Source: Corallococcus sp. AS-1-6 (lineage in GTDB: Bacteria; Myxococcota; Myxococcia; Myxococcales; Myxococcaceae). From it: DNA of 64,000 bases. The translations under genes and the position numbers were made by a program. The notes under the pieces are model-generated. The model ran no database searches. It had not been told where the DNA came from and saw nothing but the letters and a program-made list of their open reading frames with translations. Below are positions 39,551 through 58,631 of this stretch, piece after piece; position 1 is the first letter of the stretch, and each line of letters starts with the position of its first letter. The stretch is from NCBI RefSeq assembly GCF_020037015.1, contig NZ_JAIQDE010000001.1:620001-684000 (forward strand), given 5' to 3'.

Positions 39551-41389
39551 ATGACCCTCTACGACGCGGACACGGTCGACACGTGCACCTGGCCGCAGAC
39601 GCCTCAAGCGCGTCTGGCGCGTGACTACTTCGTCCCGCTGATGAAGCGCGGCAGCACCGCCTTCCTCTCCGACCGCACCACCCTGCGGCTGCTGGCGATG
39701 GATGACCTGCGCATCCCGCTGGCCATCAACGAGGCGGAGTACGGCAACTCCCCGCTGCACTCGCTGTGGGTGCGCTACATCGGCCTGCCGGTGCAGGCGG
39801 TGACGGCGCGGACGTACGGCGCGGCGCGCGCGGTGGTGATGCGCGGGGCCATGCGGACGCTGGGCGGGATGTTGAAGGCGGCGCGCATCGACAAGTGCGT
39901 CTACGTGGACCACTGGCTGGTGCTGCGCAACCTGAGCGTGGAGCTCGACGAGGCCCGGCTGGAGCGCCTCACCGCCTTCCTCGTCGAGCGGTTCCCCGGC
40001 CACGCCATCGTGTTCCCCGCCATCAACCCGGCGAACGCGTCGCCGCTGCTCAACACGCTGGCCGCGCGGGACTACGGCTTCGTCTACGGGTCGCACACGC
40101 GCATGACGCTGCCCACGCACGAGGTCAGCCGGCAGGTGCGCGAGAACCGGCGCCGCGACGGGCGGCTGCTGGAGGCCGCGGGCTACCGCGTCGTGGACGG
40201 GCGGGAGCTGCCGGAGTGCGCGCCCCGGCTGCGGGAGCTGTACCGGTCGCTCAACGCGGACAAGTACCACTCCACGCTCGACTTCACGGAGGAGTGGTTC
40301 GCGTGGACGCTGCGCGAGGGCATCTTCCAGTACTGGCTCGCGGTGAAGGACGGGCGCGTGGACGGTTTCTACGCCACGCACGTCAGCGACGACACGGTCT
40401 GGTCCCCGCTGTTCGGCTATGACCTGTCGCTGCCGCAGGAGCTGGGTCTGTACCGGGGGCTCGTGCACCGGCTGATGCAGGACGCGCTGGAGGTGGGGCT
40501 CACCATCGAGCTGGGGCCGGGCGCGGATCCGTTCAAGAGCCTGCGCGGCTCGCAGCCGGTGCCCCGCTGGACGGCGTATTACGTGAAGCACCTGTCGGGC
40601 TTCCGCCAGTACGCGTGGCGCACGCTGCAGCGCTACGTCAACGGAGGCGTGCGGCCCGCGGCGAACGCGATGCTGCGCAAGATTGATGGTGACGGCATCG
40701 TCGGCTTCGGACCGCTGACGCTGCCCTTCACACCGCCCACGGGACAGACGCCGCGCGAAGCGGCCCGGGCGCTGCGCGAGCAGGTGGACGCGCTGGAGGA
40801 CTCCCTGGAGTCCGCCGCCCGCCTGGAGGGCGAGGCCCGGCTGCGCGCGCTCTCGCCGCTGTCGCAGACCCTGCACAACTGGCCGCAGCCCATGCGCCGG
40901 GTGGTGGCCCTGCGCGAGCGGCTGACGCGGCTGGAGCAGGAGGCGCGCCGCAAGCCCGCGCAGGCCGCGGCGCCCACGAGCGTGGCTCCCGCGGACCAGG
41001 CCCGGCAGCTCCTCCAGGACGCGACTCGCTGGGGGGACACGGCGCTCGTCGCCGCGCACCTGGGCGAGGTCCCGGCCCCGCACCTCAAGGCGCTGGTGGA
41101 GGCGCTGCGGCAGGCGGCGGGCAGCGTGGGCGTGGTGCTCACCGCCACGCGCGGCGGCAAGGTGGTGCTGGTAACGGCCGCGAGCGACGCGCTCCGAGGC
41201 CAGGGCGTGGACGCGGGCCAGCTCATGGCCCAGGCGGCGCCCTGCGTGGAGGGCAAGGGCGGCGGCTCGCCGGAGGTGGCGTGGGGTGGCGGCTCGCGCG
41301 CGGACGGCATCGAGGCGGCGCTCAGCGCGACCCGGCGCTTCGTGGAGTCGCGGCTCGCGGGCCCGGTGCCGTCCGGCGGCGTGGGCTGA
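39551..41389 (+). CDS. GNAT/FemAB-like acyltransferase fused to an AlaRS C-Ala-like domain
   Basis: 612 aa from the ATG at 39551 (a GTG at 39542 is possible; GGAGG lies between). About residues 1-400 look like the BioF2/FemAB-type GNAT superfamily: a first half with FLVERFPGHAIVFPAINPANAS, then VRENRRRDGRLLEAAGYRV, then SLNADKYHSTLDFTEEWFAW, FQYWLAVKDGRVDGFYATHV, and GPGADPFKSLRGSQPVPRW, the family's C-terminal 'gxxxyKxxxG' type motif. About 400-460 are coiled coil. The last ~145 residues match the alanyl-tRNA-synthetase C-terminal domain: a coiled segment, VGVVLTATRGGKVVLVTAAS, and EGKGGGSPEVAWGGG (near 567-581), the GKGGGRPDMAQAGG motif of AlaRS. C-Ala binds the tRNA elbow. No editing or catalytic AlaRS domain is present. 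A role as an alanyl-tRNA-dependent transferase is my inference. Confidence 0.72.
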   Translation: MTLYDADTVDTCTWPQTPQARLARDYFVPLMKRGSTAFLSDRTTLRLLAMDDLRIPLAINEAEYGNSPLHSLWVRYIGLPVQAVTARTYGAARAVVMRGAMRTLGGMLKAARIDKCVYVDHWLVLRNLSVELDEARLERLTAFLVERFPGHAIVFPAINPANASPLLNTLAARDYGFVYGSHTRMTLPTHEVSRQVRENRRRDGRLLEAAGYRVVDGRELPECAPRLRELYRSLNADKYHSTLDFTEEWFAWTLREGIFQYWLAVKDGRVDGFYATHVSDDTVWSPLFGYDLSLPQELGLYRGLVHRLMQDALEVGLTIELGPGADPFKSLRGSQPVPRWTAYYVKHLSGFRQYAWRTLQRYVNGGVRPAANAMLRKIDGDGIVGFGPLTLPFTPPTGQTPREAARALREQVDALEDSLESAARLEGEARLRALSPLSQTLHNWPQPMRRVVALRERLTRLEQEARRKPAQAAAPTSVAPADQARQLLQDATRWGDTALVAAHLGEVPAPHLKALVEALRQAAGSVGVVLTATRGGKVVLVTAASDALRGQGVDAGQLMAQAAPCVEGKGGGSPEVAWGGGSRADGIEAALSATRRFVESRLAGPVPSGGVG

Positions 41390-43785: not shown

Positions 43786-43920
43786 GGGGGTCCTCGGAAC
43801 GCGAGTGCCCGGCAAGCTGGTACGCGGTGGTGATTTCAACCCAGTGTCCGCGAGGGTTGGACAAAATCAGGCTGAAGCACGTTCAGGATGTTCTTGAAGG
43901 CAGTCCGGTCAGAGCACGCC

Positions 43921-44391
43921 ATGTTCCGAATCGAGTCAGAGAAAGAGTTGCTGCGCGCGTTCCGCTCCAGGGATCGCAAGCACGTTGAACTGCCCAAGGG
44001 CACCCAGCTCCCGCTCTTCGTCCGGGACTACCTCTCGTGGGTGGATCCGTACGGGGTGCGCGTCTTCCTGGTGTTCGTCGCCCCCGGGGGCAATCGGCCC
44101 ACGGGCATCGCCTTCCGCAGGGATCAACAGGGGGACCCGACCCTGTCGCCCAAGATGTGTGAGTGGTGCCGGACGGCCACCGATGCGGAGATCGGCCTGC
44201 TCACCACGGATGTGGATTCGAAGCGCCGGGTGGGTGTGAACGTCTGCCTGGACCTGCGCTGCGGTGAGCGGCTGGAGGCCATGTCGGACCGGACCGGCCG
44301 CAGCGACCTGGACGACAAGGCGCGGCTGGTGGAGCGCATGGCGCGCTTCGCGAGCGAAGCGCTGGGGCTGGAGCCCGGCTCGGACGCGTGA
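43921..44391 (+). CDS. FBP/FusB-type treble-clef zinc-finger protein
   Basis: 156 aa from the ATG at 43921 (an in-frame ATG at 43888 is also possible). The N-terminal half is helical (ESEKELLRAFRSRDRKHVEL). The C-terminal half is a four-cysteine treble clef: CEWCRTATDAEIGLLTTDV and VNVCLDLRCGERL. The combination resembles the FBP C-terminal domain of FusB-family EF-G-binding proteins, which in staphylococci release EF-G from fusidic-acid-stalled ribosomes. Whether this one touches EF-G is not known. It converges on the NRPS gene. Confidence 0.75.
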   Translation: MFRIESEKELLRAFRSRDRKHVELPKGTQLPLFVRDYLSWVDPYGVRVFLVFVAPGGNRPTGIAFRRDQQGDPTLSPKMCEWCRTATDAEIGLLTTDVDSKRRVGVNVCLDLRCGERLEAMSDRTGRSDLDDKARLVERMARFASEALGLEPGSDA

Positions 44392-44430: not shown

Positions 44431-47400
44431 CTACGGCAGCGTCCGGAGGTGCTGGAGCAGCGGCTCCGCCACGGTGGTGGCGTGGGGCGCGCTCAGCATC
44501 GAGTAGTGCTCTGCCTGCACGTCGTACGACGTGACGGGCCCCGTGAGCCAGGCGCTCCAGTCCGTCTCCTCGGAAGCCGGCGGTCCCACGGTGGCCCGGA
44601 AGAGGACCGTGGGCCCCGGGTAGCCGCCCACGGGCACGTAGGTGCGCAGGGCCTCGTAGAACCGCGCGTGCAGGGCGAAGAGGCGCTCAGCGCCTTCCAG
44701 GTCCAGGCCCAGGTTGTTCGCGGGCGAGGCGCGGACCTGCTCCAGGACGTACGCGAGCCTCTCGCGTGCCTCCATGCGCCGCAGGCGTTCCAGGTCCAGG
44801 GCCAGGTCCTGCCAACGCAGGCCGAGCGTCCGTCCGAAGAGCGCGAGCAGCCCGAGCGGATCGGCTTCTGGACGCGGCTGGGGCGTGGGCACGGCGGAGT
44901 CGATGAGCGTCAGCAGCTCCACCGCTTCACCCACGGCCTGGAGCTGACGCGCCATCTCCAGCGCGACGAGCCCGCCGAAGGACCACCCCCCCAGCAGGTA
45001 CGGTCCCCGCGGCTGCACGGCGCGGACCTGGGCGAGGTAGTCGCGCGCCAGCGCTTCGATGGATGCCGGAGGAAGCGCGCCGCCCTCCAGGCCTGACGCG
45101 GCCACCCCGTAGACCGGCCGGTCGTGGCCCAACTGGCGCACGAGTTCGGCATAGCCCAGCACGCCGCCACCGCCGCCGTGGATGAGGAAGAGGGGACGCT
45201 TCCCCTCGGCGCCGGCTTCCAGCCGCACCAGGTTGGTGGGACGCGGAGGGGCTTCCTCCTGGAGCCGCCGCGCCAGCGCCTCGACGGTGCCGTGCTGGAA
45301 GAGGGCCGCCATGGGGAGCGCGTGCCCGGTGTGCACCCGGATGGAGGCGATCAACTTCAGGGCCAGCAGCGAGTGGCCGCCCAGCTCGAAGAAGTTGTCG
45401 GTGATGCTGACGCGAGGCACGCGCAGCACCTCCGCGAAGCACCCGGCGAGCTGTTCTTCCAGCGGCGTGCGGGGCGCGACGTGGCTTCCGGACGCGGAGG
45501 AGCCCGCGGCGTCAGGGACGGGGAGGGCCTTGCGGTCCACCTTGCCGTTGGAGTTGAGGGGCAGGGCGTCCAGTCGCCCCATGGCGGAGGGCAGCATGTA
45601 GTCCGGCAGCCGCTGCTTGAGGAACGCGCGCAGCTCGGCCACGTCCACGGCTTCGGACGCGACGTAGGCGACGAGGCGCTTGTCGCCGGGCACGTCCTCG
45701 CGGACCACGACGACCGCGCTCCGTACCGAGGGATGGGCGCGCAGGGCGGCTTCGATTTCAGGCAGCTCGATGCGGAAGCCGCGCACCTTCACCTGCGAGT
45801 CCGCGCGGCCCAGGAACTCCAGCACGCCGTCCTCGCGCCAGCGGCCGAGGTCGCCGGTGCGGTAGAGGCGTGCGCCGGGCGTGGAGGAGAACGGGTCGGG
45901 GCGGAAGCGCTCGGCGGTGAGCGCGGGCTGGCCCACGTAGCCGCGCGCGAGCCCGTCACCGCCGATGAACAGCTCGCCCTGGATGCCCGGGGGGACAGGC
46001 TGGCCAGAGGCATCCAGCACGTAGACCCGCATGTTGCTGTGCGGGCGGCCCAGCGGGACGGAGGCGCCCACCTGGGAGGCGTGCGTGAAGCGGTGACTGG
46101 TGGCGAAGACCGTGGTCTCCGTGGGGCCATAGAACGCGGAGACGGGGACGCCCAACTGCTCCAGCACGCGGCGCACATGGGACGCGGAGATGACGTCGCC
46201 GCCGGTGAGCACCCGGCGCACGGAGCGCATCGCGGGCAGGTGCGTGTCCACCAACTGGGTGAAGAAGCCAATGGTTATCCACAGCGTCGTCACGCCGTGG
46301 TGCACCAGCACCCGCTCCAGCTCGTGCGGATCCGTCGGAGGGTGGGCGGGGAAGACGGCCAGCTTCGCGCCATGAAGCAGCGCGCCCCAGACCTCGAAGG
46401 TGGAGGCGTCGAAGGCGAGGGGCGCCATCATCAGCAGCGTCTCGTCAGGTCCGAGAGGGGTGTAGTCGACGCCAAAGAGGGTGCGGAGCACGGCGGCGTG
46501 AGGCGTGCCGACCCCCTTGGGCCTGCCGGTGGAGCCGGAGGTGAAGTCGATGTACGCGAGGCTCTGGGGCAGAGCGCTGCGCGGAAGTGCATGCGAGGGC
46601 AGCGCGTCGAGGGACACCTCCTCCAGCACCACGGGCAACAGGGCCTCATGAGGCAGGTTCGGCAGCAACGCCCGCGACGTGAGGAGGACATGGGGCCGTG
46701 CGTCCTCGACCATCGCGGCCAGACGCGCGCGCGGATAGGCCGGGTCCAGCGGCACGTAGGCCGCCCCCGCCTTGAGGATGGCGACGAGCGAGACGACGAG
46801 CTCCAGCGAGCGCTCCAGGGCCACGGCCACGCGCGAGTCGGTGTCCACGCCCAGCGAGCGCAGGTGCCAGGCGAGCCGGTTGGCGCGCTCATCCAACTGC
46901 CGGTAGGTGAGGCGCGTATCCCCGAACTCGACGGCGACCTTCTCCGGGAAGCGGGCCACCACCTGCTCGAACACCTCCGGCAGGGTGGAGTCGCGCGGGT
47001 ACTCAGCGGCCGTCGCGTTCCACTCCACCAACACCCGCTGGCGCTCCGCGTCCGTCAGCAGCGACACGGAGTCGAGCAGTGCCTCGGGCCGGGCCACGAG
47101 GGCCTCCGCCAACGTGCGGAAGTGCTCCGCCATGCGCGCGGCCGTGCGCGGCTCGAACAGGGCGGTGTTGTAGAGCAGCCCTCCCGAGATGCCCTCGGGT
47201 GACTCCACCAGGCTCAGCTCCAGGTCGACCTTGGCCGCGGTCTCCTCCACGCCCAGCGGGCGCGGCGTCAGCGCCTCACCCTCCGGCGCGGGCGGGGCCC
47301 CCTCTCGCGTGCTGAAGAGCACCTGGAACAGCGGCGCGCGGCTCGGATCCCGCGCGGGCCTCAACGCCTCCACCAGACGTTCGAAGGGCAGATCCTGGTG

Positions 47401-50400
47401 GGCATAGGCCCCCAGCGCGCCCTCCTTCACCCGGCGCAGCAACTGGCGGAACGAGCCCCGGCGGTCCACCCGGGCCCGCAGCGCCAGCGTGTTGACGAAG
47501 AAGCCGATGAGCCCCTCCAGCTCTTCCGGCCCGCGGCCCGCGATGGGCGAGCCGACGACGAAGTCCTCCTGACCCGAATAGACGGCCAGCAGGACCTGCC
47601 AGAGCGCGAGCAGGGCCATGAACGGCGTGACGACCTCCTGCTGGCAGAGCGCCTTGAGGCCCCGCGCGCTCGTCCGCGACAGGCTCACGGGGACCTGCGC
47701 GCCACGGTAGGTCTGCACGGCCGGACGCGGCTTGTCCGTGGGCAGCTCCAGCGCGTGGGGCACGCCGTCGAGCTGCTGCTTCCACCACCCCAGTTGCTGC
47801 TCCAGCACCTCGCCCTGGAGCCAGCGCCGCTGCCACGTCGCGTAGTCCGCGTACTGGAGCGTCAGCGGCGGCAGGGGCGAAGGCTGGCCGTTCGAGAACG
47901 CCGCGTGGAGCGCGGTCAACTCCGCGACGAGGACGCGGTTGGACCAGCCATCCGAGACGATGTGGTGCAGCGTGACGAGCAGCACGTGCCGCCGCGCGGA
48001 CAGGCGCAGCAGGGTGGCGCGCATCAACGGCGCGCGGGTCAGGTCGAACGGGATGCGCGCTTCCTCCAGGGCCCGCCGCCGCGCCTCCTCCTCCTGCTCC
48101 GCCTCCGGCAGGTGGCTCAGGTCCACCTGGGCCAGGGGCAGCTCGGCGTGCGGGTGCGGCTGCTGGAAGGGCTCGCCGTCCTCGCGGGCGTGGAACGTGG
48201 TGCGCAGGGCCTCATGGCGGTGGACGAGCTCCTGAAGACCTCGCGCCAGCGCCCCGGCGTCCAGCGGACCGTCGAGCCGCAAGGCCGCGGGGACGTTGTA
48301 GTGGACGCTCCCCGGTTCCAGCCGGTCGAGGAACCACAGCCGCTGCTGCGCGAACGACAGCGGCAGCGGCCCGCCGCGCGGCACGGGCACCAGCGGAGGA
48401 CGCCCGGCGCCCCCCGGACCCCGCGAGCCGGCCTCGATGCGCGAGGCCAGCGCCTCCACGGTGGAGGCTTCGAACAGCGCGCGCAGCGGCAGCTCCGCGC
48501 CCGTCTCCGCGCGCACCCTCGACACCACCTGCGTCGCGAGCAACGAGTGGCCGCCCAACGCGAAGAAGTCGTCCTTCACGCCCACGCGCGGCAGGCGCAG
48601 CACCTGGGCCCAGATGGCCGCCAGCTTCGCCTCCAGCTCCGTTCGCGGCGCTTCGTACGCGGCGCTGGAGGTCCGCGCCTCCGGCTCCGGCAACGCCTTG
48701 CGGTCGACCTTCCCATTGACGTTGAGCGGCAGCGCCTCCAGCACCACCCACACGGTGGGCACCATGGCCTCCGTCAACCGCTGGCGCAGGTGGGCCTTCA
48801 ACGCGTCCGGCTCCAGCGTCGCGCCGGCCTTCGGCGCCACGTACGCGACCAGCCGCTTCTCCGTGCCCTCTCCCTTCGCCACGACGACGGCTTCCTTCAC
48901 CGTCTCCACCTGGCGCAGCGCGGCCTCGACTTCACCCAGCTCGATGCGGAAGCCGCGCACCTTCACCTGGAAGTCGAAGCGGCCCAGGAAGTCGAGCGTG
49001 CCGTCCTCCAACCAGCGGGCCTTGTCGCCCGTGCGGTAGAGGCGCTCGCCCGGCGTGGAGGCGAAGGGATGCGGGACGAAGCGCTCCGCGGTCAGCTCGG
49101 GGCGGTTCAGGTAGCCCCAGGCCAGGCCCTTGCCGCCGACGAACACCTCGCCCGCGACGCCCACCGGCACCGGTTGCAGGTGCGCGTCGAGGACGTAGGT
49201 GGTGGCGTTCGGGATGGGCCGGCCAATGGACACCGGGCCCTCCACGCGAGAGTTCCGCTCCAGCGGCAGTGTGGTGGAGAAGGTCGTGTTCTCCGTGGGG
49301 CCGTAGGCGTGGATGACCGTCGCGCCTTCGGGGAGGCGGGCGAGGTGGTCGCGCATGCGTGGCCAGGGCATCACCTCACCGCCCGCCAGGACCTGGCTCA
49401 CGCCCGCGAGCGCCTCGCCCTGGTGCAGGACCATCTGCTCGAAGAGCGCGGTCGTCATGAACAGCGCCGTCACGCGGTGGCGCACCAGTTGTGCGGCCAG
49501 CTCCTCCAGCGACAGGGCCTGCGGCGGCGTGAGGACGACCTTCGCGCCGTGCAGCAGCGCCCCCCAGATTTCGAGCGTCGACGCGTCGAAGGCGATGGGG
49601 GCGAACTGCAGCCAGACCTGCTCCGGTCCGAAGCGCATGAAGGTGCTGCCCAGCACCAGGCGCGTGATGCCCCGGTGGGGCACGCAGACGCCCTTGGGAC
49701 GGCCGGTGCTGCCGGAGGTGAACATGATGTAGGCCAGGGCTTCGCCGTCCACGCGGACCTCCGGCGCGTGCGTGGGCCTGGTCGCGATGGCGTCCCACCC
49801 GGCATCCAGCCAGACGCGGGCGCCGGAGGCGGGCAGCAGCGGCGCGAAGGCCTGATGCGTCAGCGTCACGCTGACCTCGGCATCGGCGAGCAGCGCGGCG
49901 GTGCGCTCCACCGGAGCGTTGCGGTCCACGGGGACGTAGGCGGCGCCCAGCTTGAGGATGGCGAGCAGCGCCGTCACCAGCTCGAAGGACCGGTCGAGGG
50001 CGAGCCCGACGCGCGCGCCCGGGACGACGCCCAGCGCGCGCAGGTGATGGGCCAGTTGGTTCGCGCGGGACTCCAGCCGCGCATACGTCAGCGAGTCCTC
50101 CCCCTGCACCAGGGCCACGGCGTCCGGCGTGCGCCGGGCCTGCTCGGTGAAGTGGACGTGGACGGGGACGTCCGTCGGGCTGGCGACGGCGGTGTCGTTC
50201 CAGTCCACGAGGAGCCGCTGGCGTTCGTCGCGGGAGAGCAGCGGCAGCCGGGCCACGGACTGGCCGGGGTTCGCGACCGCGGCCTCCAGCAGCGTGCGCA
50301 GGTGGTCCATCATCCGGAGCGCGGTCGAGGGGTTGAACAGGTCCGCGCGGTAGCTCAGCGCGCCCCGCAGCCCCTGCGGCGTCCGCACCAGCGAGAGCGT

Positions 50401-53400
50401 GAGGTCGAACGGGGTCGTCTGCTCCGACTGCTCCATCGGCAGAAGCCGGAGCGTGGAGCCGTCGCGGCCCGCCGGCAGCGACTGGGGCTGCGGCGGCGCG
50501 TCCCGCAGCGCGAGCACGGCCTGGAAGAGGGGCGAGTGGCTCAGGCTGCGCTGGGGATGCAGCTCCTCCACCAGCTTCTCGAAGGGCGCGTCCTGGTGCT
50601 CATAGGCCGCGAGGGTGGTGGCGCGCACCTGGCCCAGCAGCTCGCGGAAGGAGGCCTTCGGGTCCACGCGCGCGCGCAGCACCAGCGTGTTCACGAAGAA
50701 GCCGATGAGCCCTTCTGTCTCCTCGCGCGTGCGCCCGGCGATGGGCGAGCCGACGGGGATGTCCTCCTGGCCCGCGTAGCGCGAGAGCAGCGCCTGCCAG
50801 GCCGCCATCAGGCCCATGAAGAGCGTGGCGCCCTCGCGCTGGCACAGCGCCTGGAGCGCCTGCGACAGCGCCTCCGGCAACTGCACGGGCACCTGGGCGC
50901 CCACCGGGGACAGGATGCGGGGACGCGGCCGGTCCGTGGGCAGCTCCAGGAGCGGCGGCACGCCAGCGAGCTGCCGGCGCCAGTAGGCCAGGTGGTGTTC
51001 CAGCACCTCGTCCTTCAGCCACTCGCGCTGCCACGTCGCGAAGTCGGCGTATTGCACGGGCAGCGGAGGCAGCGGGACGGGCTGCCCCGCGACGTGGGCA
51101 CCGTAGAGCGCGGTCAGCTCCCGCACGAGCACGCCCATGGACCACCCGTCGGAGACGATGTGGTGCATGTTCAGCCACAGCACGTGCGTGGTGGCGTCCA
51201 GGCGCAGCAGCGCCGTGCGCAAGAGGGGCCCGCGCTCCAGGTCGAACGGGCGAAGGGCCTCTTCCCGCAACCGCCGGGCGACGGCCTCCTCCGGGACCGC
51301 GCCCAGTTCCACCGTCTCCAGCGCGAAGGGCACCGTGGGAAGGATGACCTGGACGGGCTGCCCCTCCTGCGAGACGAAGACGGTGCGCAGGGCCTCGTGG
51401 CGGGCGATGAGCGAGGCGAAGGCCTTCTCCAGCGCGGGCACGTCTAGCGCGCCTTCCACGCGCAGGGCCAGGAAGAGGTTGTAGGTGGCGCTGCCCGGCT
51501 CGAGCTGATCCACGAGCCACAGCCGCTGCTGCGCGAAGGACAGGGGCAGCGGGCCCGTGCGGGAGACCGGGACGAGGGGGGGCGGAGGCGGCAGCGCCAC
51601 CACGCCGCGTCCGCGCAGTGCTCGCAGGACTTCCCGCGCCCGGCGGTGCGCTTCCGCCCAGCTCAGCGTGTGGCCCTCGTGCTCGAAGGCGGCGGTGCCG
51701 GGGTTGCGCCGGGCCTGTGCCTCCAGCAGTCCGTGCAGGGACGCGTCCTCCGCCGTGGCCGCGCCGGGCTCGCTCCAGGAGTGGAGCAGCAGCCCGCGCT
51801 CCTCGAGCGTGAGCATGGGCAGCGCGGAGAGGCGGCGCTCCGGTGCGTTCAGCGCCCCGGCCAGCAGCGCGCGCAGGTGGCCCACCATGCGGCTGGCGGT
51901 CGAGGCGTCGAAGAGGTCGGTGTTGTATTCGAGCAGGCCCTTCAGCCCGTCGGCGGTGTCGTTCAGCGCCAGGGTGAGGTCGAACTTCGCCGTGCCGCCC
52001 CGGGGCTCCAGCGGCTGGAGCTTGAGGCCCGTGCCCAGCGTCTCCGGCATGGGCGCGTTCTGGTACGCGAGCATCACCTGGAAGAGCGGCGTGCGGCGCG
52101 GGTCCCGCTCCGGCCGGAGCGCCTCCACCAGCTTCTCGAAGGGCACGTCCTGATGCGCGTACGCCCCCAGGGCCACGTCGCGCACGCGGGCGAGCAGCTC
52201 ACGGAAGCTCGGGTCCCCGTCCAGCTTCGTGCGCAGCACCAGCGTGTTGACGAAGAAGCCGATGAGCCCCTCCAGCTCCGCGTGGTGACGGCCCGCGATG
52301 GGCGAGCCCACGGAGATGTCCTCCTGGCCGCTGTAGCGCGAGAGCAGCACCTGGAACGCGGCCAGCACCACCATGGAGGGCGTGACGCCCTCGCCGCGGC
52401 AGAGCGCCTGCATCGCGTCCGACAGCTCGCGAGGGAACTGGAAGGGCACCACCGCGCCACGGAAGGTCTGGGCCGCGGGCCGAGGCCGATCCGTGGGCAG
52501 CTCCAGGGCCTTCGGTGCGCCGTGGAGCTGCTGGCGCCACCAGCCGAGCTGGGCCTCCAATGCGTCGTCGCGCAGCCAGCCGCGCTGCCAGACGGAGTAG
52601 TCCGCGTATTGCACGGGCAGCGGCTTGAGCCTCGGGGCCCGGCCTTCTGCGTGGGCGGCGTACAGCGTGGTCAACTCCTGGAGGAGCACGCCCATGGACC
52701 AGGCGTCGGAGATGACGTGGTGCATGGTCAGCAGCAGCAGGTGGTGCTGCTCGCTCATGCGCACCAGCAGGACGCGCCAGAGCGGACCGGCTTCCAGGTC
52801 GAAGACCTGCCGTGCCTCGTCGTCGAGGATGGCGCCGAGCGCGTGCTCGGCATCCGGCAGCGTGCTCAGGTCCATCCAGCCGGCGGGCAGCGTGGGGGAC
52901 GCGCTGATGACCTGGACGGGGCCGGACGCCTCTTCACGGAAGGTGGTGCGCAGGGATTCGTGACGCTGGGACAGGTCGCGCAGGCCCCGTGCGAGCGCGG
53001 GCACGTCGAGCGGGCCTTCGAGCCGCATGACGAAGGGGAGGTTGTACGCGGTGCTGTCGGGCTCCAGCTTCGCGAGGAACCACAGCCGCTGCTGGGCGAA
53101 GGACAGGGGCAGGCCGCCGTCGCGAGGCACCGGCTTGAGCGCGGGCGCGGCGAGGGCGGGGCGCACCGGGCCCTGGGACTCCAGCCGCTGGGCGATGGCT
53201 TCCACGGTGGGGGCCGCGAAGAAGTTCGCGATGGACAGCTCCGCCTGGAAGGCACGGCGGATGCGCGAGAGGATCTGCGTGGCGCTGAGTGAATTGCCGC
53301 CCAGGTCGAAGAAGTTGTCCTCGGCGCCGACCGTGCCCGTCTGGAGGACCTCTTCCCAGAGCGTGGCGAGCAGCCGCTCGGTGTCCGTGCGCGGAGGGCG

Positions 53401-56400
53401 CGTCCGTGCGCGGGTCTGGAAGGTGGAGGGCGCGGGGAGGGCCTTGCGGTCCACCTTGCCGTTGGAGTTGAGAGGCAGGGCGTCCAGTCGCCCCATGGCG
53501 GAGGGCAGCATGTAGTCCGGCAGCCGCTGCTTGAGGAACGCGCGCAGCTCGGCCACGTCCAGGGACTCGGGCGCGACGACGTAGGCGACGAGGCGCTTGT
53601 CGCCGGGCACGTCCTCGCGGGCCATGACGACGGCCTCGCGCACTTCAGGATGGGCGCGCAGGGCGGCTTCGATTTCGGGCAGCTCGATGCGGAAGCCGCG
53701 CACCTTCACCTGCGAGTCCGCGCGGCCCATGAACTCCAGCACACCGTCCTCGCGCCAGCGGCCGAGGTCGCCGGTGCGGTAGAGGCGTGCGCCGGGAGTG
53801 GAGGAGAACGGGTCGGGCAGAAAGCGCTCCGCGGTGAGCGCGGGCTGGCCCACGTAGCCACGCGCGAGCCCGTCACCGCCGATGAACAGCTCGCCCTGGA
53901 TGCCCGGGGGGACAGGCTGGCCGGAAGCATCCAGCACGTACACCCGCATGTTGCTGTGCGGGCGGCCCAGCGGGACGGAGGCGCCGACCTGGGAGGCCTG
54001 CGTGAAGCGGTGGCTGGTGGCGAAGACCGTGGTCTCCGTGGGGCCATAGAGCGCGGAGACGGGGACGCCCAACTGCTCCAGCACGCGGCGCACGTGGGAT
54101 GCGGAGATGACGTCGCCGCCGGTGAGCACCCGGCGCAGGGAACGCAGCGCGGGCAGGTGTGAATCCACCAACTGGGTGAAGAAGCCGATGGTTATCCACA
54201 GCGTCGTCACGCCGTGATGCACCAGCACCCGCTCCAACTCGTGCGGATCCGTCGGAGGGTGGGCGGGGAAGACGGCCAGCTTCGCGCCATGAAGCAGCGC
54301 GCCCCAGACCTCGAAGGTGGAGGCGTCGAAGGCGAGGGGCGCCATCATCAGCAGCGTCTCGTCAGGTCCGAGAGGGGTGTAGTCGACGCCAAAGAGGGTG
54401 CGGAGCACGGCGGCGTGAGGCGTGCCGACCCCCTTGGGCCTGCCGGTGGAGCCGGAGGTGAAGTCGATGTACGCGAGGCTCTGGGGCAGAGCGCTGCGCG
54501 GAAGCGCATGCGAGGGCTGCGAGTCGAGGGACACCTCCTCTAGCACCACGGGCAACAGGGCCTCATGAGGCAGGTTCGGCAGCAACGCCCGCGACGTGAG
54601 GAGGACATGGGGTCGTGCGTCCTCGACCATCGCGGCCAGACGCGCGCGCGGGTAGGCCGGGTCCAGGGGCACGTAGGCCGCCCCCGCCTTGAGGATGGCG
54701 ACGAGCGAGACGACGAGCTCCAGCGAGCGCTCCAGGGCCACGGCCACGCGCGAGTCGGTGTCCACGCCCAGCGAGCGCAGGTGCCAGGCGAGCCGATTGG
54801 CGCGCTCATCCAACTGCCGGTAGGTGAGGCGCGTGTCCCCGAACTCGACGGCGACCTTCTCCGGGAAGCGGGCCACCACCTGCTCGAACACCTCCGGCAG
54901 CGTGGAGTCGCGCGGGTACTCGACCGCGGTCGCGTTCCACTCCACCAGCACCCGCTGGCGCAGCTCGGTCGTCAGAGGGGCACGTGGCCGCGCATCGGCG
55001 CGGGCCTGCGAGTCTTCGGCTTCCGCCGCGTTCGACTCCGTCACCACCGGCTGACGCAGTTCGGTCGTCAGGGGGGCACGTGGCCGCGCATCGGCGCGGG
55101 CCTGCGAGTCTTTGGCTTCCGCCGCGTTCGACTCCGCCACCACCGGCTGACGCAGCTCGGTCGTCAGGGTGGCACGTGGCTGCGCGGCGGCGCGGGCCTC
55201 CCATTCGCGCGCGACATCCTCCAGCGGAACCATGGGCACGGGCCGCGAACGGGCTTCCCGTGCCTTGCGCGGCGCGGGGAGCGGCTGTGCCTTGCCCGCG
55301 AGCGCCTCGTCGATGAGACGTGCCACGGCGTCCAGCGTGGGGGTTTCAAACAAGCGCCGGAGGGGCAGCTCCACCGAGAAGGCCTGACGGATCCGGCTGA
55401 GCGCCTGCGTGGCCAGCAGCGAATGCCCGCCCAGGTCGAAGAAGTGATCCTTCGCCCCGACGCGCGTCACGCCGAGCAGCTCCTGCCACAGGCCCGCCAG
55501 TCGCTGCTCGGTGGGCGTGCGAGGCGCGACGTACTCCCGAGGGTCACTCCCCGCCAGGTCCGGAGCCGGCAGCGCCTTGCGGTCCACCTTGCCGTTGGTC
55601 GTGAGCGGGAGCGCGGGCAGCACCACCACGGCCGACGGCACCATGTACTCAGGCAGCGCGTCCTTGAGCGCCGCCCGCAGCCCGCTGCCGTTGGCGTCAA
55701 CGCCGTCGCGAAGCACGACGTAGCCCACCAGCCGCTTGCCGCCGGGCCCGTCCTCGCGCGCCACCACCACCGCGTCCCGCACCGGGGGCAGCTTCGCCAG
55801 CGAGGACTCCACCTCACCCAGCTCGATGCGGAAGCCACGCACCTTCACCTGCGCGTCCGCCCGGCCCACGAACTCCAGCGTGCCGTCCTCGCGCCAGCGC
55901 ACCACGTCGCCCGTGCGGTACAGCCGCGCTCCCGCCTCGCCGGAGAAGGCATCCGGCACGAAGCGCTCGGCCGTCAGCGCGGGCCGGCCCGAATAGCCTC
56001 GCGCCACGCCCACGCCGCCCAGGTGCAGCTCGCCCTTCACGCCCACGGGCACGAGCCCGCCCCGCGCATCCAGCACGTACGCGCGCACGTTGGCCAGCGG
56101 CCGGCCAATGGACGGCACGCGCCCGTCCGCCGTGCACTCGGTGAGCGTGGCCATGACGGTGGCCTCCGTGGGGCCGTAGGTGTTGAGGAACACGCGGCCC
56201 GGAGCCCACCGCGCCACCACCTCCGGGGGCAGCGCTTCACCGCCCGAGATGACGGTCCGCAGCGCGGGCAGTCCTTCCGGAGCCGTGGCCGCGAGCGTCG
56301 CTGGCGTGAGGCTGATGACCGTCAGGGCCTCGTCGCGCAGCAGCTTGCGCAGCGGCTCACCGGGCATCAGGTCCTCCAGCGGCGCCAGCACCAGCGTGGC

Positions 56401-58506
56401 CCCGCTGCACAGCGTGGTGAAGATCTCCTCCACCGACAGGTCGAACGAGAGGCTGGCGAACTGGAGGACGCGGCTGCCCGGCCCGATGCCATAGGCCGTG
56501 GCCTCATGCGCGACCAGGTTGCAGACGCCACGGTGCTCGATGGCGGTCCCCTTGGGCATGCCCGTGCTGCCAGAGGTGTAGAGCACGTAGGCGAGGTTCC
56601 GAGCTCCCACGCCGGAGTCCGGAGCCAGCACGCTCTCCCACGCGAGCGCATCCCGCTCCACGTCCAGGCACAGCGCTCGGGAGCGCAGCGCCTCCGGGAA
56701 GCGCTCCAGAAGCGGGCCCTGCGTCACCAGCACGGAGGCGCCGCTGTCCTCCAGCATGAAGGCCAGCCGCTCCCGAGGCAGCAGCGGATCCACCGGCACC
56801 CACGCACCGCCCGCCTTGAGGATGCCGAGCAATCCCACGGCGACGTCCAGCGAGCGCTCCACGCTCAAGGCCACCCGGGCCTCCGGCCCCACGCCCCGGC
56901 GGCGCAGCGCCTGCGCGAGCTGGTTCGCGCGGGCATCCAACTGCGCGTACGTGAGCGTCTGTCCCTGGAACCTCACGGCCACGGTGTCGGGCGTCCGCCG
57001 CGCCTGCGCTTCGAAGAGCGTGTGCAGGCAGCAGTCCTCCGGGAAGGGCGCGGCGCTGCCAGCCCACTCGCGCTGGACCCGCATGGCCTCGGCCGCGTCC
57101 ATCAAGGGCAGCTCGGAGACGCGCCGGCCCGGGTCCGCGACCGCCCCTTCCAGCAGCGTGCGCAGGTGCGCGAGCAGCCGCTGGATGGAGCCGGGGTCGA
57201 AGAGGTCCGTGTTGTACTCCGCCGTGAGGCGCATGCCCTGCGGCACCTCCATGGCGATGAGCGACAGGTCCGTCTTGCTGGTGCGGTTGTCCACCGGCTG
57301 CGCGTCCAGGACGAGCCCCGGCAGTCGCAGCGGCGGCAGCGGCGCGTTCTGCAGCGTCAGCGCCACCTGGAAGAGGGGATTGACGCTCAACTGGCGCTCC
57401 GGCTTCAGCGCGTCCACCAGCTTCTCGAAGGGCACGTCCTGGTGCGCGTAGGCCTCCAGCGTGGACTCGCGCACGCGGCCGAGCAGCTCGCGGAAGGACG
57501 GCTGGCCGGACAGGTCCGTGCGCAGGGCCAGGTAGTTGGTGAACAGGCCGATGAGCCCTTCCAGCTCCGCGCGGCCACGGCCGGCCACGGACGTGCCCAC
57601 CACCACGTCCTGCTGGCCGCTGTAGCGCGACAGCAGCACCTGGAAGCCCGCGAGCAGCACGCCGAAGAGGGTGTTGCCCTCCGCGAGCGCGAGCGCCTTC
57701 AGCTCCTCCACGAGCGCCGCAGGCAGCACCGCGTTGATGCGCGCACCGCGTCCGGAGAGGACCGCGGCGCGGGGCCTGTCGGTGGGCAGCTCCAGCACCG
57801 CGTCCGGATCCAACCGCTGGCGCCAGAAGCCCAGGTGCGACTCCAGCACCTCGCCCTTCAGGAACTCGCGTTGCCAGGCCGCGTAGTCGGCGTACTGCAT
57901 GGGCAGCGCGGCCAGCGGTGACGGCTTGCCCTCCGCGAGCGCCGGATACAGCGCGCTCAGCTCGCGCACCAGCACCCCCATGGACCAGCCGTCCGTGATG
58001 ATGTGGTGCAGCTTGAGCAGCAGCACGTGCTCCAGCGCATCCAGCCGGTACAGCACCGTGCGCAGCAGCGGCCCCTTCTCCAGGTCGAACGGCTGGCGCG
58101 CCTCGTCGGTGATCAGCCGCGAGGCCTCCGCCTCACGCTCCGGCGCGGGCAGCGATTGGAGGTCCACCAGCGGCAGCGCCAGGTCCAACACGGGCGCGAT
58201 GTGTTGCAGCGGCCGGCCGTCCTGTTCGACGAAGGTGGTGCGCAGCGGCGCGTGACGCCGCACCAGCGCCTGGAGGCTGGCGTGCAGCACGGCCACGTCC
58301 AGCACCCCGGAGAAGCGCACGCGGACCGGGATGTTGAAGGCGGCGCTGCCCGGGCTCAGCCGGTCCTGGAACCACATGCGCTCCTGGCTGAAGGACACCG
58401 GCGCCTGCGTGGGGCGGACCTTGCCGCGCAGCAGCTCCGCCAGCCGCGCGCGCTTCTGCTCCGGCGTCAGCCCCGCGCCGTTACCTTCTGTTTCAAATGT
58501 CCTCAT
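44431..58506 (-). CDS. Giant non-ribosomal peptide synthetase with rearranged modules and terminal thioesterase
   Basis: 4691 aa from the ATG at 58506; the open frame runs to 58668, but upstream residues lack NRPS character. Domain order with landmark residues: C1 (HHIITDG at 167), A1 (TSGSTG near 643), T1 (Ser 1029), then directly A2 (near 1349) without a C domain, T2 (Ser 1739), C3 (HHVISDA at 1929, Ala for Gly), A-domain stub (about 2225-2305), C4 (HHIVSDG at 2448), A4 (near 2929), T4 (Ser 3321), C5 (HHIVSDG at 3514), A5 (near 3988), T5 (Ser 4379), TE (GWSFGG, Ser 4509). Specificity residues read by eye (235,236,239,278,299,301,322,330,331): A1 DLESIGTVM; A2 DAFWLGLVF; A4 DALFLGATF; A5 DAFWLGFVF. 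A2, A4 and A5 suggest aliphatic or aromatic residues; none is a safe match. Four loading modules allow up to a tetrapeptide. No MbtH, PPTase or transporter lies nearby. Confidence 0.93.
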   Translation of the reverse strand: MRTFETEGNGAGLTPEQKRARLAELLRGKVRPTQAPVSFSQERMWFQDRLSPGSAAFNIPVRVRFSGVLDVAVLHASLQALVRRHAPLRTTFVEQDGRPLQHIAPVLDLALPLVDLQSLPAPEREAEASRLITDEARQPFDLEKGPLLRTVLYRLDALEHVLLLKLHHIITDGWSMGVLVRELSALYPALAEGKPSPLAALPMQYADYAAWQREFLKGEVLESHLGFWRQRLDPDAVLELPTDRPRAAVLSGRGARINAVLPAALVEELKALALAEGNTLFGVLLAGFQVLLSRYSGQQDVVVGTSVAGRGRAELEGLIGLFTNYLALRTDLSGQPSFRELLGRVRESTLEAYAHQDVPFEKLVDALKPERQLSVNPLFQVALTLQNAPLPPLRLPGLVLDAQPVDNRTSKTDLSLIAMEVPQGMRLTAEYNTDLFDPGSIQRLLAHLRTLLEGAVADPGRRVSELPLMDAAEAMRVQREWAGSAAPFPEDCCLHTLFEAQARRTPDTVAVRFQGQTLTYAQLDARANQLAQALRRRGVGPEARVALSVERSLDVAVGLLGILKAGGAWVPVDPLLPRERLAFMLEDSGASVLVTQGPLLERFPEALRSRALCLDVERDALAWESVLAPDSGVGARNLAYVLYTSGSTGMPKGTAIEHRGVCNLVAHEATAYGIGPGSRVLQFASLSFDLSVEEIFTTLCSGATLVLAPLEDLMPGEPLRKLLRDEALTVISLTPATLAATAPEGLPALRTVISGGEALPPEVVARWAPGRVFLNTYGPTEATVMATLTECTADGRVPSIGRPLANVRAYVLDARGGLVPVGVKGELHLGGVGVARGYSGRPALTAERFVPDAFSGEAGARLYRTGDVVRWREDGTLEFVGRADAQVKVRGFRIELGEVESSLAKLPPVRDAVVVAREDGPGGKRLVGYVVLRDGVDANGSGLRAALKDALPEYMVPSAVVVLPALPLTTNGKVDRKALPAPDLAGSDPREYVAPRTPTEQRLAGLWQELLGVTRVGAKDHFFDLGGHSLLATQALSRIRQAFSVELPLRRLFETPTLDAVARLIDEALAGKAQPLPAPRKAREARSRPVPMVPLEDVAREWEARAAAQPRATLTTELRQPVVAESNAAEAKDSQARADARPRAPLTTELRQPVVTESNAAEAEDSQARADARPRAPLTTELRQRVLVEWNATAVEYPRDSTLPEVFEQVVARFPEKVAVEFGDTRLTYRQLDERANRLAWHLRSLGVDTDSRVAVALERSLELVVSLVAILKAGAAYVPLDPAYPRARLAAMVEDARPHVLLTSRALLPNLPHEALLPVVLEEVSLDSQPSHALPRSALPQSLAYIDFTSGSTGRPKGVGTPHAAVLRTLFGVDYTPLGPDETLLMMAPLAFDASTFEVWGALLHGAKLAVFPAHPPTDPHELERVLVHHGVTTLWITIGFFTQLVDSHLPALRSLRRVLTGGDVISASHVRRVLEQLGVPVSALYGPTETTVFATSHRFTQASQVGASVPLGRPHSNMRVYVLDASGQPVPPGIQGELFIGGDGLARGYVGQPALTAERFLPDPFSSTPGARLYRTGDLGRWREDGVLEFMGRADSQVKVRGFRIELPEIEAALRAHPEVREAVVMAREDVPGDKRLVAYVVAPESLDVAELRAFLKQRLPDYMLPSAMGRLDALPLNSNGKVDRKALPAPSTFQTRARTRPPRTDTERLLATLWEEVLQTGTVGAEDNFFDLGGNSLSATQILSRIRRAFQAELSIANFFAAPTVEAIAQRLESQGPVRPALAAPALKPVPRDGGLPLSFAQQRLWFLAKLEPDSTAYNLPFVMRLEGPLDVPALARGLRDLSQRHESLRTTFREEASGPVQVISASPTLPAGWMDLSTLPDAEHALGAILDDEARQVFDLEAGPLWRVLLVRMSEQHHLLLLTMHHVISDAWSMGVLLQELTTLYAAHAEGRAPRLKPLPVQYADYSVWQRGWLRDDALEAQLGWWRQQLHGAPKALELPTDRPRPAAQTFRGAVVPFQFPRELSDAMQALCRGEGVTPSMVVLAAFQVLLSRYSGQEDISVGSPIAGRHHAELEGLIGFFVNTLVLRTKLDGDPSFRELLARVRDVALGAYAHQDVPFEKLVEALRPERDPRRTPLFQVMLAYQNAPMPETLGTGLKLQPLEPRGGTAKFDLTLALNDTADGLKGLLEYNTDLFDASTASRMVGHLRALLAGALNAPERRLSALPMLTLEERGLLLHSWSEPGAATAEDASLHGLLEAQARRNPGTAAFEHEGHTLSWAEAHRRAREVLRALRGRGVVALPPPPPLVPVSRTGPLPLSFAQQRLWLVDQLEPGSATYNLFLALRVEGALDVPALEKAFASLIARHEALRTVFVSQEGQPVQVILPTVPFALETVELGAVPEEAVARRLREEALRPFDLERGPLLRTALLRLDATTHVLWLNMHHIVSDGWSMGVLVRELTALYGAHVAGQPVPLPPLPVQYADFATWQREWLKDEVLEHHLAYWRRQLAGVPPLLELPTDRPRPRILSPVGAQVPVQLPEALSQALQALCQREGATLFMGLMAAWQALLSRYAGQEDIPVGSPIAGRTREETEGLIGFFVNTLVLRARVDPKASFRELLGQVRATTLAAYEHQDAPFEKLVEELHPQRSLSHSPLFQAVLALRDAPPQPQSLPAGRDGSTLRLLPMEQSEQTTPFDLTLSLVRTPQGLRGALSYRADLFNPSTALRMMDHLRTLLEAAVANPGQSVARLPLLSRDERQRLLVDWNDTAVASPTDVPVHVHFTEQARRTPDAVALVQGEDSLTYARLESRANQLAHHLRALGVVPGARVGLALDRSFELVTALLAILKLGAAYVPVDRNAPVERTAALLADAEVSVTLTHQAFAPLLPASGARVWLDAGWDAIATRPTHAPEVRVDGEALAYIMFTSGSTGRPKGVCVPHRGITRLVLGSTFMRFGPEQVWLQFAPIAFDASTLEIWGALLHGAKVVLTPPQALSLEELAAQLVRHRVTALFMTTALFEQMVLHQGEALAGVSQVLAGGEVMPWPRMRDHLARLPEGATVIHAYGPTENTTFSTTLPLERNSRVEGPVSIGRPIPNATTYVLDAHLQPVPVGVAGEVFVGGKGLAWGYLNRPELTAERFVPHPFASTPGERLYRTGDKARWLEDGTLDFLGRFDFQVKVRGFRIELGEVEAALRQVETVKEAVVVAKGEGTEKRLVAYVAPKAGATLEPDALKAHLRQRLTEAMVPTVWVVLEALPLNVNGKVDRKALPEPEARTSSAAYEAPRTELEAKLAAIWAQVLRLPRVGVKDDFFALGGHSLLATQVVSRVRAETGAELPLRALFEASTVEALASRIEAGSRGPGGAGRPPLVPVPRGGPLPLSFAQQRLWFLDRLEPGSVHYNVPAALRLDGPLDAGALARGLQELVHRHEALRTTFHAREDGEPFQQPHPHAELPLAQVDLSHLPEAEQEEEARRRALEEARIPFDLTRAPLMRATLLRLSARRHVLLVTLHHIVSDGWSNRVLVAELTALHAAFSNGQPSPLPPLTLQYADYATWQRRWLQGEVLEQQLGWWKQQLDGVPHALELPTDKPRPAVQTYRGAQVPVSLSRTSARGLKALCQQEVVTPFMALLALWQVLLAVYSGQEDFVVGSPIAGRGPEELEGLIGFFVNTLALRARVDRRGSFRQLLRRVKEGALGAYAHQDLPFERLVEALRPARDPSRAPLFQVLFSTREGAPPAPEGEALTPRPLGVEETAAKVDLELSLVESPEGISGGLLYNTALFEPRTAARMAEHFRTLAEALVARPEALLDSVSLLTDAERQRVLVEWNATAAEYPRDSTLPEVFEQVVARFPEKVAVEFGDTRLTYRQLDERANRLAWHLRSLGVDTDSRVAVALERSLELVVSLVAILKAGAAYVPLDPAYPRARLAAMVEDARPHVLLTSRALLPNLPHEALLPVVLEEVSLDALPSHALPRSALPQSLAYIDFTSGSTGRPKGVGTPHAAVLRTLFGVDYTPLGPDETLLMMAPLAFDASTFEVWGALLHGAKLAVFPAHPPTDPHELERVLVHHGVTTLWITIGFFTQLVDTHLPAMRSVRRVLTGGDVISASHVRRVLEQLGVPVSAFYGPTETTVFATSHRFTHASQVGASVPLGRPHSNMRVYVLDASGQPVPPGIQGELFIGGDGLARGYVGQPALTAERFRPDPFSSTPGARLYRTGDLGRWREDGVLEFLGRADSQVKVRGFRIELPEIEAALRAHPSVRSAVVVVREDVPGDKRLVAYVASEAVDVAELRAFLKQRLPDYMLPSAMGRLDALPLNSNGKVDRKALPVPDAAGSSASGSHVAPRTPLEEQLAGCFAEVLRVPRVSITDNFFELGGHSLLALKLIASIRVHTGHALPMAALFQHGTVEALARRLQEEAPPRPTNLVRLEAGAEGKRPLFLIHGGGGGVLGYAELVRQLGHDRPVYGVAASGLEGGALPPASIEALARDYLAQVRAVQPRGPYLLGGWSFGGLVALEMARQLQAVGEAVELLTLIDSAVPTPQPRPEADPLGLLALFGRTLGLRWQDLALDLERLRRMEARERLAYVLEQVRASPANNLGLDLEGAERLFALHARFYEALRTYVPVGGYPGPTVLFRATVGPPASEETDWSAWLTGPVTSYDVQAEHYSMLSAPHATTVAEPLLQHLRTLP
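45520..47043 (-). repeat. Copy of ~1.5-kb near-identical A-domain segment (A5 copy)
   Basis: This stretch, encoding A5, is almost identical in DNA to 53434-54961, encoding A2, offset by 7914-7917 nt. One codon of difference (VASEAVDV against VVAPESLDV) shifts the offset by 3. By eye most windows of 50-100 nt match exactly. At the specificity position equivalent to GrsA 322 this copy has TTC (Phe) at 46132-46134. Confidence 0.85.
51575..51830 (-). other. Truncated adenylation-domain stub between C3 and C4 of the NRPS
   Basis: In frame inside the NRPS. After C3 the normal A-domain start is present (LHGLLEAQARRNPGTAAFEH, then GHTLSWAEAHRRAREVLRAL), but after about 60 residues it jumps to VALPPPPPLVPVSR and the start of C4. 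The rest of an A domain and a T domain are missing, so this looks like the scar of an in-frame deletion. Confidence 0.85.
53434..54961 (-). repeat. Copy of ~1.5-kb near-identical A-domain segment (A2 copy)
   Basis: The partner of 45520-47043 in the same gene and orientation. The specificity position has CTC (Leu) at 54049-54051, a single-base change from the A5 copy. Such close identity between two A domains 8 kb apart points to recent duplication or ongoing gene conversion. Confidence 0.85.
54961..55200 (-). repeat. 96-bp tandem repeats in the T1-A2 linker
   Basis: The motif CAGxTCGGTCGTCAG recurs at 54961, 55057 and 55153, exactly 96 bp (32 codons) apart. The encoded unit is LTTELRQPVVxESNAAEAxDSQARADARPRAP. 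The copy next to A2 runs into the standard A-domain entrance (LTTELRQRVLVEWNATA), so the repeats look like degenerate copies of that entrance. Confidence 0.9.
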
Positions 58507-58631
58507 GTTTCGAGAATAACCGGTCAGAGGAGGGCACTGGGTGAAAGCGACCCTCGACGATATTCCCGATGATTTCGACGCAGCGCGCACGGCAGGACGC
58601 GTCGTGCGCGAGGGGAAGACGAGGCCCGAAG

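Follow-up and report, generated by a model that had tools for sequence, protein, structure and literature searches.

The window considered here, 64,000 nucleotides from Corallococcus sp. AS-1-6 (NCBI RefSeq assembly GCF_020037015.1, contig NZ_JAIQDE010000001.1, positions 620,001 to 684,000 of the forward strand), holds a gene that fuses a double-GNAT transferase to C-Ala, the C-terminal domain of alanyl-tRNA synthetase (AlaRS). The gene begins with an ATG 10 bases past the stop codon of a TlpA-like gene and shares the window with a nonribosomal peptide synthetase (NRPS) gene on the other strand (Table 1); no tRNA genes were found within the 64 kb. The two parts are recognized by separate domain models in a Pfam scan. 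PF13480 (Acetyltransf_6) matches residues 195-330 with an E value of 5.6e-7 (30.2 bits, cut-off 22), and PF02272 (DHHA1) matches residues 505-599 with an E value of 4.2e-7 (30.8 bits, cut-off 25.9). Likewise, positions 704-847 of the 847 in the NCBIfam model TIGR00344 (alaS) match residues 438-581 (E 5.2e-9); this is the C-Ala end only, and neither the catalytic nor the tRNA-recognition domains of AlaRS were matched. The best PDB sequence matches of the tail are the AlaRS C-Ala domains 3g98 and 2zvf, and residues 477-603 of the full-length model superpose on both, with Z 14.5 and a root-mean-square deviation (rmsd) of 3.0 over 117 aligned residues for 2zvf, and Z 13.2 and an rmsd of 2.3 over 108 for 3g98. 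An earlier note on this DNA had ascribed an AlaRS C-Ala domain to the C-terminus, and the matches and fold bear this out. Given that the host encodes its AlaRS apart from the fusion, in a gene at another place in the genome that keeps its own C-Ala end, the tail of the fusion is an additional copy.

Table 1. Coordinates of the features discussed, as positions in the window
Feature	Position	Strand	Basis
Fusion gene, double-GNAT transferase plus AlaRS C-Ala, A1-type copy, 612 residues	39551..41389	+	Domain matches, copy tree
Double-GNAT half, about residues 1-345 (up to ~360), FemX-like fold	39551..40585	+	Model; PF13480 at residues 195-330
F328-K329 within FKxxRG, possible equivalent of FemX Lys305 / DhpH-C Lys329	40532..40537	+	Invariant in rows examined
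Linker, residues 346-480, mostly helical	40586..40990	+	Secondary structure of model
AlaRS-type C-Ala domain (DHHA1), residues 481-602	40991..41356	+	Hidden Markov model matches and fold
GKGGGS, glycine motif of C-Ala with its lysine, in a loop at residues 568-573	41252..41269	+	Motif counts and PMC10485164
NRPS gene, 4692 residues (start chosen by eye), C-A-T-A-T-C-C-A-T-C-A-T-TE	44431..58509	-	Domain and motif maps
Approximate T1-A2 linker of the window NRPS, without condensation domain, holding a tandem repeat	54889..55302	-	

The fusion is real, neither a chance junction nor an artefact, since a C-Ala-fused copy is present in every genome with a match. A profile of the N-terminal part found 17 such genomes among 195 Myxococcota, in 4 of 90 genera, and within the genus the full-length fusion occurs in 11 of 16 genomes; the survey of myxobacteria that the earlier note had asked for thus shows the fusion to be conserved. 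Across ten pairs tested, the ratio of nonsynonymous to synonymous substitution rates lay between 0.05 and 0.69 in the GNAT, linker and C-Ala parts. A scan of GTDB contigs, which finds close relatives only, returned nine loci, all from Corallococcus or Archangium, the named relatives being Corallococcus species and Archangium lansinium. A plasmid search gave 20 records with matches, none spanning 80% of the query, and among the best 15 of these the first 12 rows cover the GNAT part only and rows 13-15 the tail only. On a tree of the 16 genomes built from three marker genes (one of them absent for G004), the fusion changes state three times, two of the changes being forced by well-supported branches, and the pattern for the NRPS is the same.

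The fused copies are of two kinds, A and B. An A copy with C-Ala is present in all 17 host genomes and a B copy besides it in 13, and B without A was seen in no genome. Four genomes carry A alone (G000, G004, G008 and G122), so A appears able to act by itself. In the copy tree the 13 B rows group apart from the A rows (support 94/92) and the window copy branches within the Corallococcus A copies; the Archangium A copy is unresolved there, and a second tree, quickly built, places it with A. The distinction is sharpest in the glycine loop of C-Ala, where GKGGG[SA] is kept by every one of the 21 A copies and by none of the 13 B copies. In the C-Ala of Caenorhabditis elegans, K934, the lysine that comes first in the motif, is docked onto tRNA residue G18, and the K934A change lowers affinity 11-fold (PMC10485164). 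Of the B copies, two were tested against the AlaRS model, and both continue to match its C-terminal end. The B copy of G005 (L039:9830-11269) stops after 479 residues, without C-Ala. The solo A copy of G122 lies at L092:12584-14404; its same-genus relatives G125 and G136 have B and an NRPS, with some neighbours similar by eye.

The front half takes a FemX-like double-GNAT fold in structure models. The full-length model, made from a 23-sequence alignment, comprises this half, long helices and C-Ala (pLDDT 77.6, pTM 0.67), and residues 1-400 modelled alone scored better (pLDDT 87.3, pTM 0.88). When the GNAT half was ranked against 999 PDB chains preselected by Foldseek, the top 13 rows, about seven proteins with several repeated, were all aminoacyl-tRNA-dependent transferases. 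Weissella FemX (Z 16.5-17.0; for 4ii9 Z 17.0, rmsd 4.2, 288 aligned) and Sbb17 (9wqw, Z 16.9, rmsd 3.3, 257 aligned) were among the best, as was Sba18, and Staphylococcus aureus FemX (16.4), MprF (15.1 and 14.9) and FemA (14.7) also ranked high. Rows 1-26 of the Foldseek search contain FemX, MprF (DUF2156) or Sbb17/Sba18 only, at query TM-scores of 0.37-0.49. This ranking bears on a rival explanation, namely that the GNAT half works as a plain N-acyltransferase, taking its donor from acyl-coenzyme A (acyl-CoA) or an acyl-carrier protein and modifying an NRPS product, with C-Ala having ceased to bind tRNA and serving for dimerisation or docking only. The best CoA-dependent enzyme was VipF (Z 14.6, rmsd 7.2), and FemX and Sbb17/Sba18 alone stand about 2 Z units above it, with the same order in Foldseek. 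A common fold is in itself no proof of function; sequence methods make no connection between the GNAT half and FemX, and the likeness is one of the modelled fold.

Conserved residues speak to the same choice. Motifs were counted in 37 myxobacterial rows (all 21 A copies, all 13 B copies and 3 of 8 stand-alone copies), and invariant positions in the 23 GNAT-half sequences, which comprise 12 of the 34 A and B copies, 3 of the 8 stand-alone copies and all but one of the nine plasmid loci retrieved, these eight being from Bacillota, Deinococcota, Alphaproteobacteria and Betaproteobacteria. The latter set has 21 invariant positions, including G299, Y301, R302, F328, K329, R332 and G333, and FKxxRG, which contains F328-K329, is present in 37 of 37 rows. 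The key residues reported elsewhere are Lys305 in FemX and Lys329 with Phe328 in DhpH-C (PMC12945691). A comparable FK-x-x-(F/W)-(G/A) is seen in PF02388-positive proteins, S. aureus FemX and Sbb17. A single-sequence PDB search with one PF02388 member, intended to locate FemX Lys305, gave an alignment that stopped short of that residue. The pyrophosphate loop of CoA-dependent GNATs has the consensus Q/R-x-x-G-x-G/A. All 37 rows have G-x-Y-R where such a loop would end in G or A, the tyrosine taking the last position, and measured against that general consensus the last small residue is absent throughout, which counts against acyl-CoA as donor. It also counts against the notion that the charged tRNA is itself the acceptor, the amino group of Ala-tRNA being acylated to N-acyl-alanyl-tRNA for biosynthesis or self-protection. 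GNAT toxins do acylate the amino group of other aminoacyl-tRNAs, and a GNAT fold with a tRNA-binding tail would permit the reaction; with the FemX-like double-GNAT architecture, the missing CoA-loop residue and the NRPS operon context against it, this explanation is very improbable.

The association with nonribosomal peptide synthesis is genetic. Wherever a B copy is present (13 of 13 genomes), an NRPS gene follows it directly on the same strand; A is the gene immediately before B in 12 of these genomes, and in G003 A and B lie at contig ends. By called starts, the spacing runs from a 4-base overlap to about 75 bases between A and B, and from a 4-base overlap to about 125 bases between B and the NRPS. 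Motif maps of seven B-associated NRPSs read C-A-T-A-T-C (condensation, C; adenylation, A; thiolation, T), with no condensation domain between T1 and A2, and a Pfam scan of one B-associated NRPS gave two C, two A and two T domains and one thioesterase (TE). The window NRPS begins with the same C-A-T-A-T-C, and across some 2,200 residues it shares 52% identity with the G136 NRPS. DNA of the window-type NRPS is present in 11 of 11 genus genomes with the fusion, at 83-92% identity over two blocks in the other ten, and in 0 of 5 without it, where the best listed match is 73%. In G002, G005, G009 and G015 the window-type NRPS and the fusion are on different contigs, and simple linkage therefore fails to explain their co-occurrence. 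Further, the window genome's nearest relatives in the marker tree, G006 and G010, lack both the fusion and the NRPS and keep genes of the region named by eye as LysR-like, lipoprotein-like and small; as the genes between remain, the fusion and the NRPS, about 3 kb apart, were lost or left out together. The window NRPS is probably the partner of the fusion, and the neighbourhoods of the fused copies point to nonribosomal peptide synthesis.

These neighbourhoods lend no support to the cell-wall or protein acceptor that had been tentatively proposed for the transferred alanine. Aminoacylation of the cell wall or of lipids, in the manner of FemABX or MprF, was considered on account of the fold held in common with those enzymes. 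Against it stand the NRPS that follows every B copy, the accessory distribution of the fusion (17 of 195 genomes) and the want of any FemAB or DUF2156 model match, and it was set aside as scarcely credible. PF02388 itself occurs in few genomes of the phylum (4 of 58).

The best explanation, to which a probability of roughly 0.57 is given, is that the fusion protein serves a nonribosomal peptide pathway as an aminoacyl-tRNA-dependent transferase, resembling PacB but equipped with an AlaRS-derived capture module, and that its donor is most likely Ala-tRNA(Ala). The C-Ala tail is predicted to bind tRNA, gripping the elbow of a charged molecule, most likely Ala-tRNA(Ala), and would deliver the acceptor end to the double-GNAT half. 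Catalysis is predicted to lie in that half, which, by analogy with PacB, would move the amino acid onto an amine of an NRPS-made or NRPS-carried substrate, the predicted acceptor. A possible site of action is the NRPS junction between T1 and A2 that is without a condensation domain. The AlaRS-derived grip would in this way divert charged tRNA to the transferase. The tRNA-dependent transferase of the earlier note thus survives as the best available reading, on the FemX-like fold of the model, the C-Ala homology and the elbow loop of the A copies.

Alanine is the likely rather than the certain donor, and specificity for tRNA(Ala) is no more than plausible, given that the C-Ala domains of Escherichia coli and C. 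elegans are relaxed in their tRNA specificity (PMC10485164). That relaxation favours a variant in which C-Ala is a general elbow grip and the GNAT pocket picks an amino acid other than alanine, and natural-product transferases of the GNAT fold do draw on Ser, Leu, Gly and Ala donors (PMC12945691). The known carriers of C-Ala, AlaRS and type II AlaXp, both act on tRNA(Ala) (PMC10485164), and recruitment for tRNA(Ala) is the simplest reading; a donor other than alanine is accordingly judged distinctly unlikely. A more elaborate proposal assigns roles to the two copies. The elbow domain would have been recruited as an aminoacyl-tRNA capture module for the NRPS, with A, whose loop is intact, holding the charged tRNA and B, whose loop is lost, acting as its partner subunit; the helical linkers may hold the two together. 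A and B would then jointly make the peptide bond at T1-A2-T2 in place of the missing condensation domain, in some genomes in trans. This fuller scheme is speculative and rather doubtful.

Several observations weigh against a PacB-like, tRNA-dependent enzyme. No PF02388 (FemAB) or DUF2156 model matches the fusion protein at E values up to 1, and so the description of its N-terminal 400 or so residues as a BioF2/FemAB-type GNAT stands as to a FemX-like double GNAT with PF13480, over about residues 1-360, and falls as to FemAB membership. Searched as a profile against PDB sequences, the GNAT half drew two plastocyanins only (E 1.9), and profile-profile alignment (hhalign) with four distant PF02388-positive proteins gave a probability of 0.3% and an E value of 0.22, with FK placed opposite FK. 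In the structural ranking VipF comes within 1 Z unit of both MprF (15.1) and FemA (14.7), which amounts to a tie. A Pfam scan found no family in two B copies and DHHA1 alone in the Archangium A copy, PF13480 being absent from all three at E up to 0.001. In the tail, the second lysine of the GG motif, corresponding to C. elegans K938, is lost, being S in the window protein and S or A in the A copies; K938A lowers affinity threefold in C. elegans C-Ala (PMC10485164). By recount, only 16 of the 39 columns conserved in Myxococcota AlaRS are kept in A copies and 9 in B copies. The comparison drew on 19 of the 20 AlaRS loci, L031 having yielded no motif, and on all but one each of the 21 A and the 13 B copies. 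The genetic link also has gaps. G002 and G005 carry the window-type NRPS with no fusion adjoining at the two loci examined, and in G122 the fusion has neither B nor an NRPS adjoining. Independent events are few: a sign test on independent pairs had two pairs (p 0.5), and with two pairs only it is unable to reach significance. The joint absence of fusion and NRPS from G006 and G010 could reflect a single recombination over the region.

The relatives that lack C-Ala add to this side of the balance. The stand-alone plasmid GNATs (L128-L131 and L133-L136) are 366-384 residues long, the Paenibacillus one being 33.5% identical to the front half of the fusion. At six of eight annotated plasmid loci genes for KAS III, an NAD(P) oxidoreductase, an MBL hydrolase and a CoF-synthetase-like protein (unnamed in the Roseateles locus) precede the GNAT, and five of these six have an ATP-grasp gene nearby; the two Deinococcus loci differ in gene content, and one further record, from Shinella, is unannotated. 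No aminoacyl-tRNA synthetase gene is annotated in any of the eight annotated stretches. The neighbours of a stand-alone Corallococcus GNAT (L047) include a DUF3419 gene as well as an Asp/Asn hydroxylase and a PapA5-like transferase. DUF3419 genes occur at L047:4661-5779, two genes before the GNAT in Corallococcus, and at L133:5911-6984, directly before the GNAT of a Rhizobium plasmid. The wider family probably makes small molecules and may be independent of tRNA, and its gene context is the main support for an acyl-CoA or acyl-carrier donor. The same explanation draws on the standing of PF13480 as a general acyltransferase family, on CoA-dependent tandem GNATs of the same fold, VipF being tied with MprF and FemA, and on B copies without the GG-motif lysine, one of them (G005) without C-Ala at all. 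The retention of the GG loop throughout the A copies is at odds with it, as are the structural ranking and the altered CoA loop described above, and it is regarded as unlikely, though of some weight. Readings based on tRNA remain preferred, with a PacB-like transferase at their head.

Features around the fusion and in its NRPS complete the picture. The TlpA-like gene matches AhpC-TSA/Redoxin in Pfam; the gene called CFI-box has no significant Pfam match. The cluster that these genes form is not the functional context of the fusion, and it was rejected as a functional partner: the gene called CFI-box is found throughout the genus (16 of 16 genomes), also in the 5 genomes that lack the fusion, and TlpA and thioredoxin lie side by side, their stop codons separated by 9 bases, in G006 and G010, both of them single-contig genomes with no fusion. 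A small gene of the window (43888-44391) has two side-by-side matches in G010 (L106:11511-12560), where NRPS and fusion are missing. Within the window NRPS a 96-bp tandem repeat (2.8 copies, 91% matches) occupies 54931-55199, in the T1-A2 linker, where a condensation domain would be expected. The domain order is unusual in its two adjacent C domains, the second C domain has HHVISDA instead of HHxxxDG, and the second and fourth A domains have the same motif pieces. MFS transporter genes, two of which were scanned, lie near some A/B loci. Genes similar by eye accompany tandem pairs at L038:11893-13254, L057:3230-4588, L093:1946-3325 and L094:6842-8242; the L038 copy, the only one scanned, gave a weak circularly permuted ATP-grasp match below the cut-off.

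Among known systems the nearest are PacB, VlmA, DhpH-C, DhpK, Orf11 and Sbb17/Sba18, which share the double-GNAT FemX-like fold and a biosynthetic context (PMC12945691). PacB, of the pacidamycin pathway, is in addition NRPS-associated and a user of Ala-tRNA (PMC12945691, PMC4052509), taking L-Ala from aminoacyl-tRNA and attaching it to the scaffold anchored on PacH, at the N-terminal residue (PMC4052509). Sbb17/Sba18 also stand near the top of the structural ranking for the GNAT half. The likeness to this group is one of fold and context; in the available portions of these sources no AlaRS C-Ala tail is described for its members, whereas the fusion brings its own predicted elbow-binding module and occurs either as A and B in tandem or as A alone. 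FemX and FemA (FemABX) and MprF likewise rank among the best structural matches, and the fusion differs from them in its lack of a PF02388 or DUF2156 match, its NRPS context and its C-Ala tail. With AlaRS and type II AlaXp, the carriers of C-Ala named in PMC10485164, it shares C-Ala homology by model and fold; it differs in having no matched AlaRS catalytic domain and in bearing C-Ala on a transferase. AcmF of the ascamycin pathway also transfers Ala from Ala-tRNA in a natural-product pathway by means of an AlaRS-derived part (PMC12945691). The fusion keeps just the opposite end of AlaRS, C-Ala, and has a GNAT fold. LysX of actinobacteria joins a whole aminoacyl-tRNA synthetase to an MprF-type transferase. 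Fungal AspRS proteins similarly join synthetase-derived sequence (PMC2922099) to a transferase of that type. Both differ from the fusion in that the synthetase module is present, whereas the fusion has only the appendage that binds tRNA in AlaRS. The GNAT of thiamyxin, considered as a possible link, was rejected, as it is a polyketide loading domain (PMC10100342). No title or abstract opening among the matches listed from the open-licence literature describes a fusion of GNAT and C-Ala, and the accessible part of a 2026 review of aminoacyl-tRNA-dependent enzymes (PMC12945691) contains 0 occurrences of 'C-Ala' and 0 of 'DHHA1'.

How charged tRNAs are supplied to the transferases of peptidoglycan synthesis has been called somewhat unclear in most instances (PMC4052509). 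If the proposed function is true, the fusion would be a direct answer to the question of how a charged tRNA reaches a transferase, namely by way of the elbow domain of AlaRS itself. It would likewise represent a third setting for C-Ala beyond AlaRS and type II AlaXp, and the natural A/B pair, in which the elbow loop is kept in A and lost in B, provides a ready-made control. More broadly, the fusion would supply a domain signature by which tRNA-dependent steps in NRPS clusters could be spotted through genome mining, and a modular handle for engineering tRNA-dependent amide bonds.

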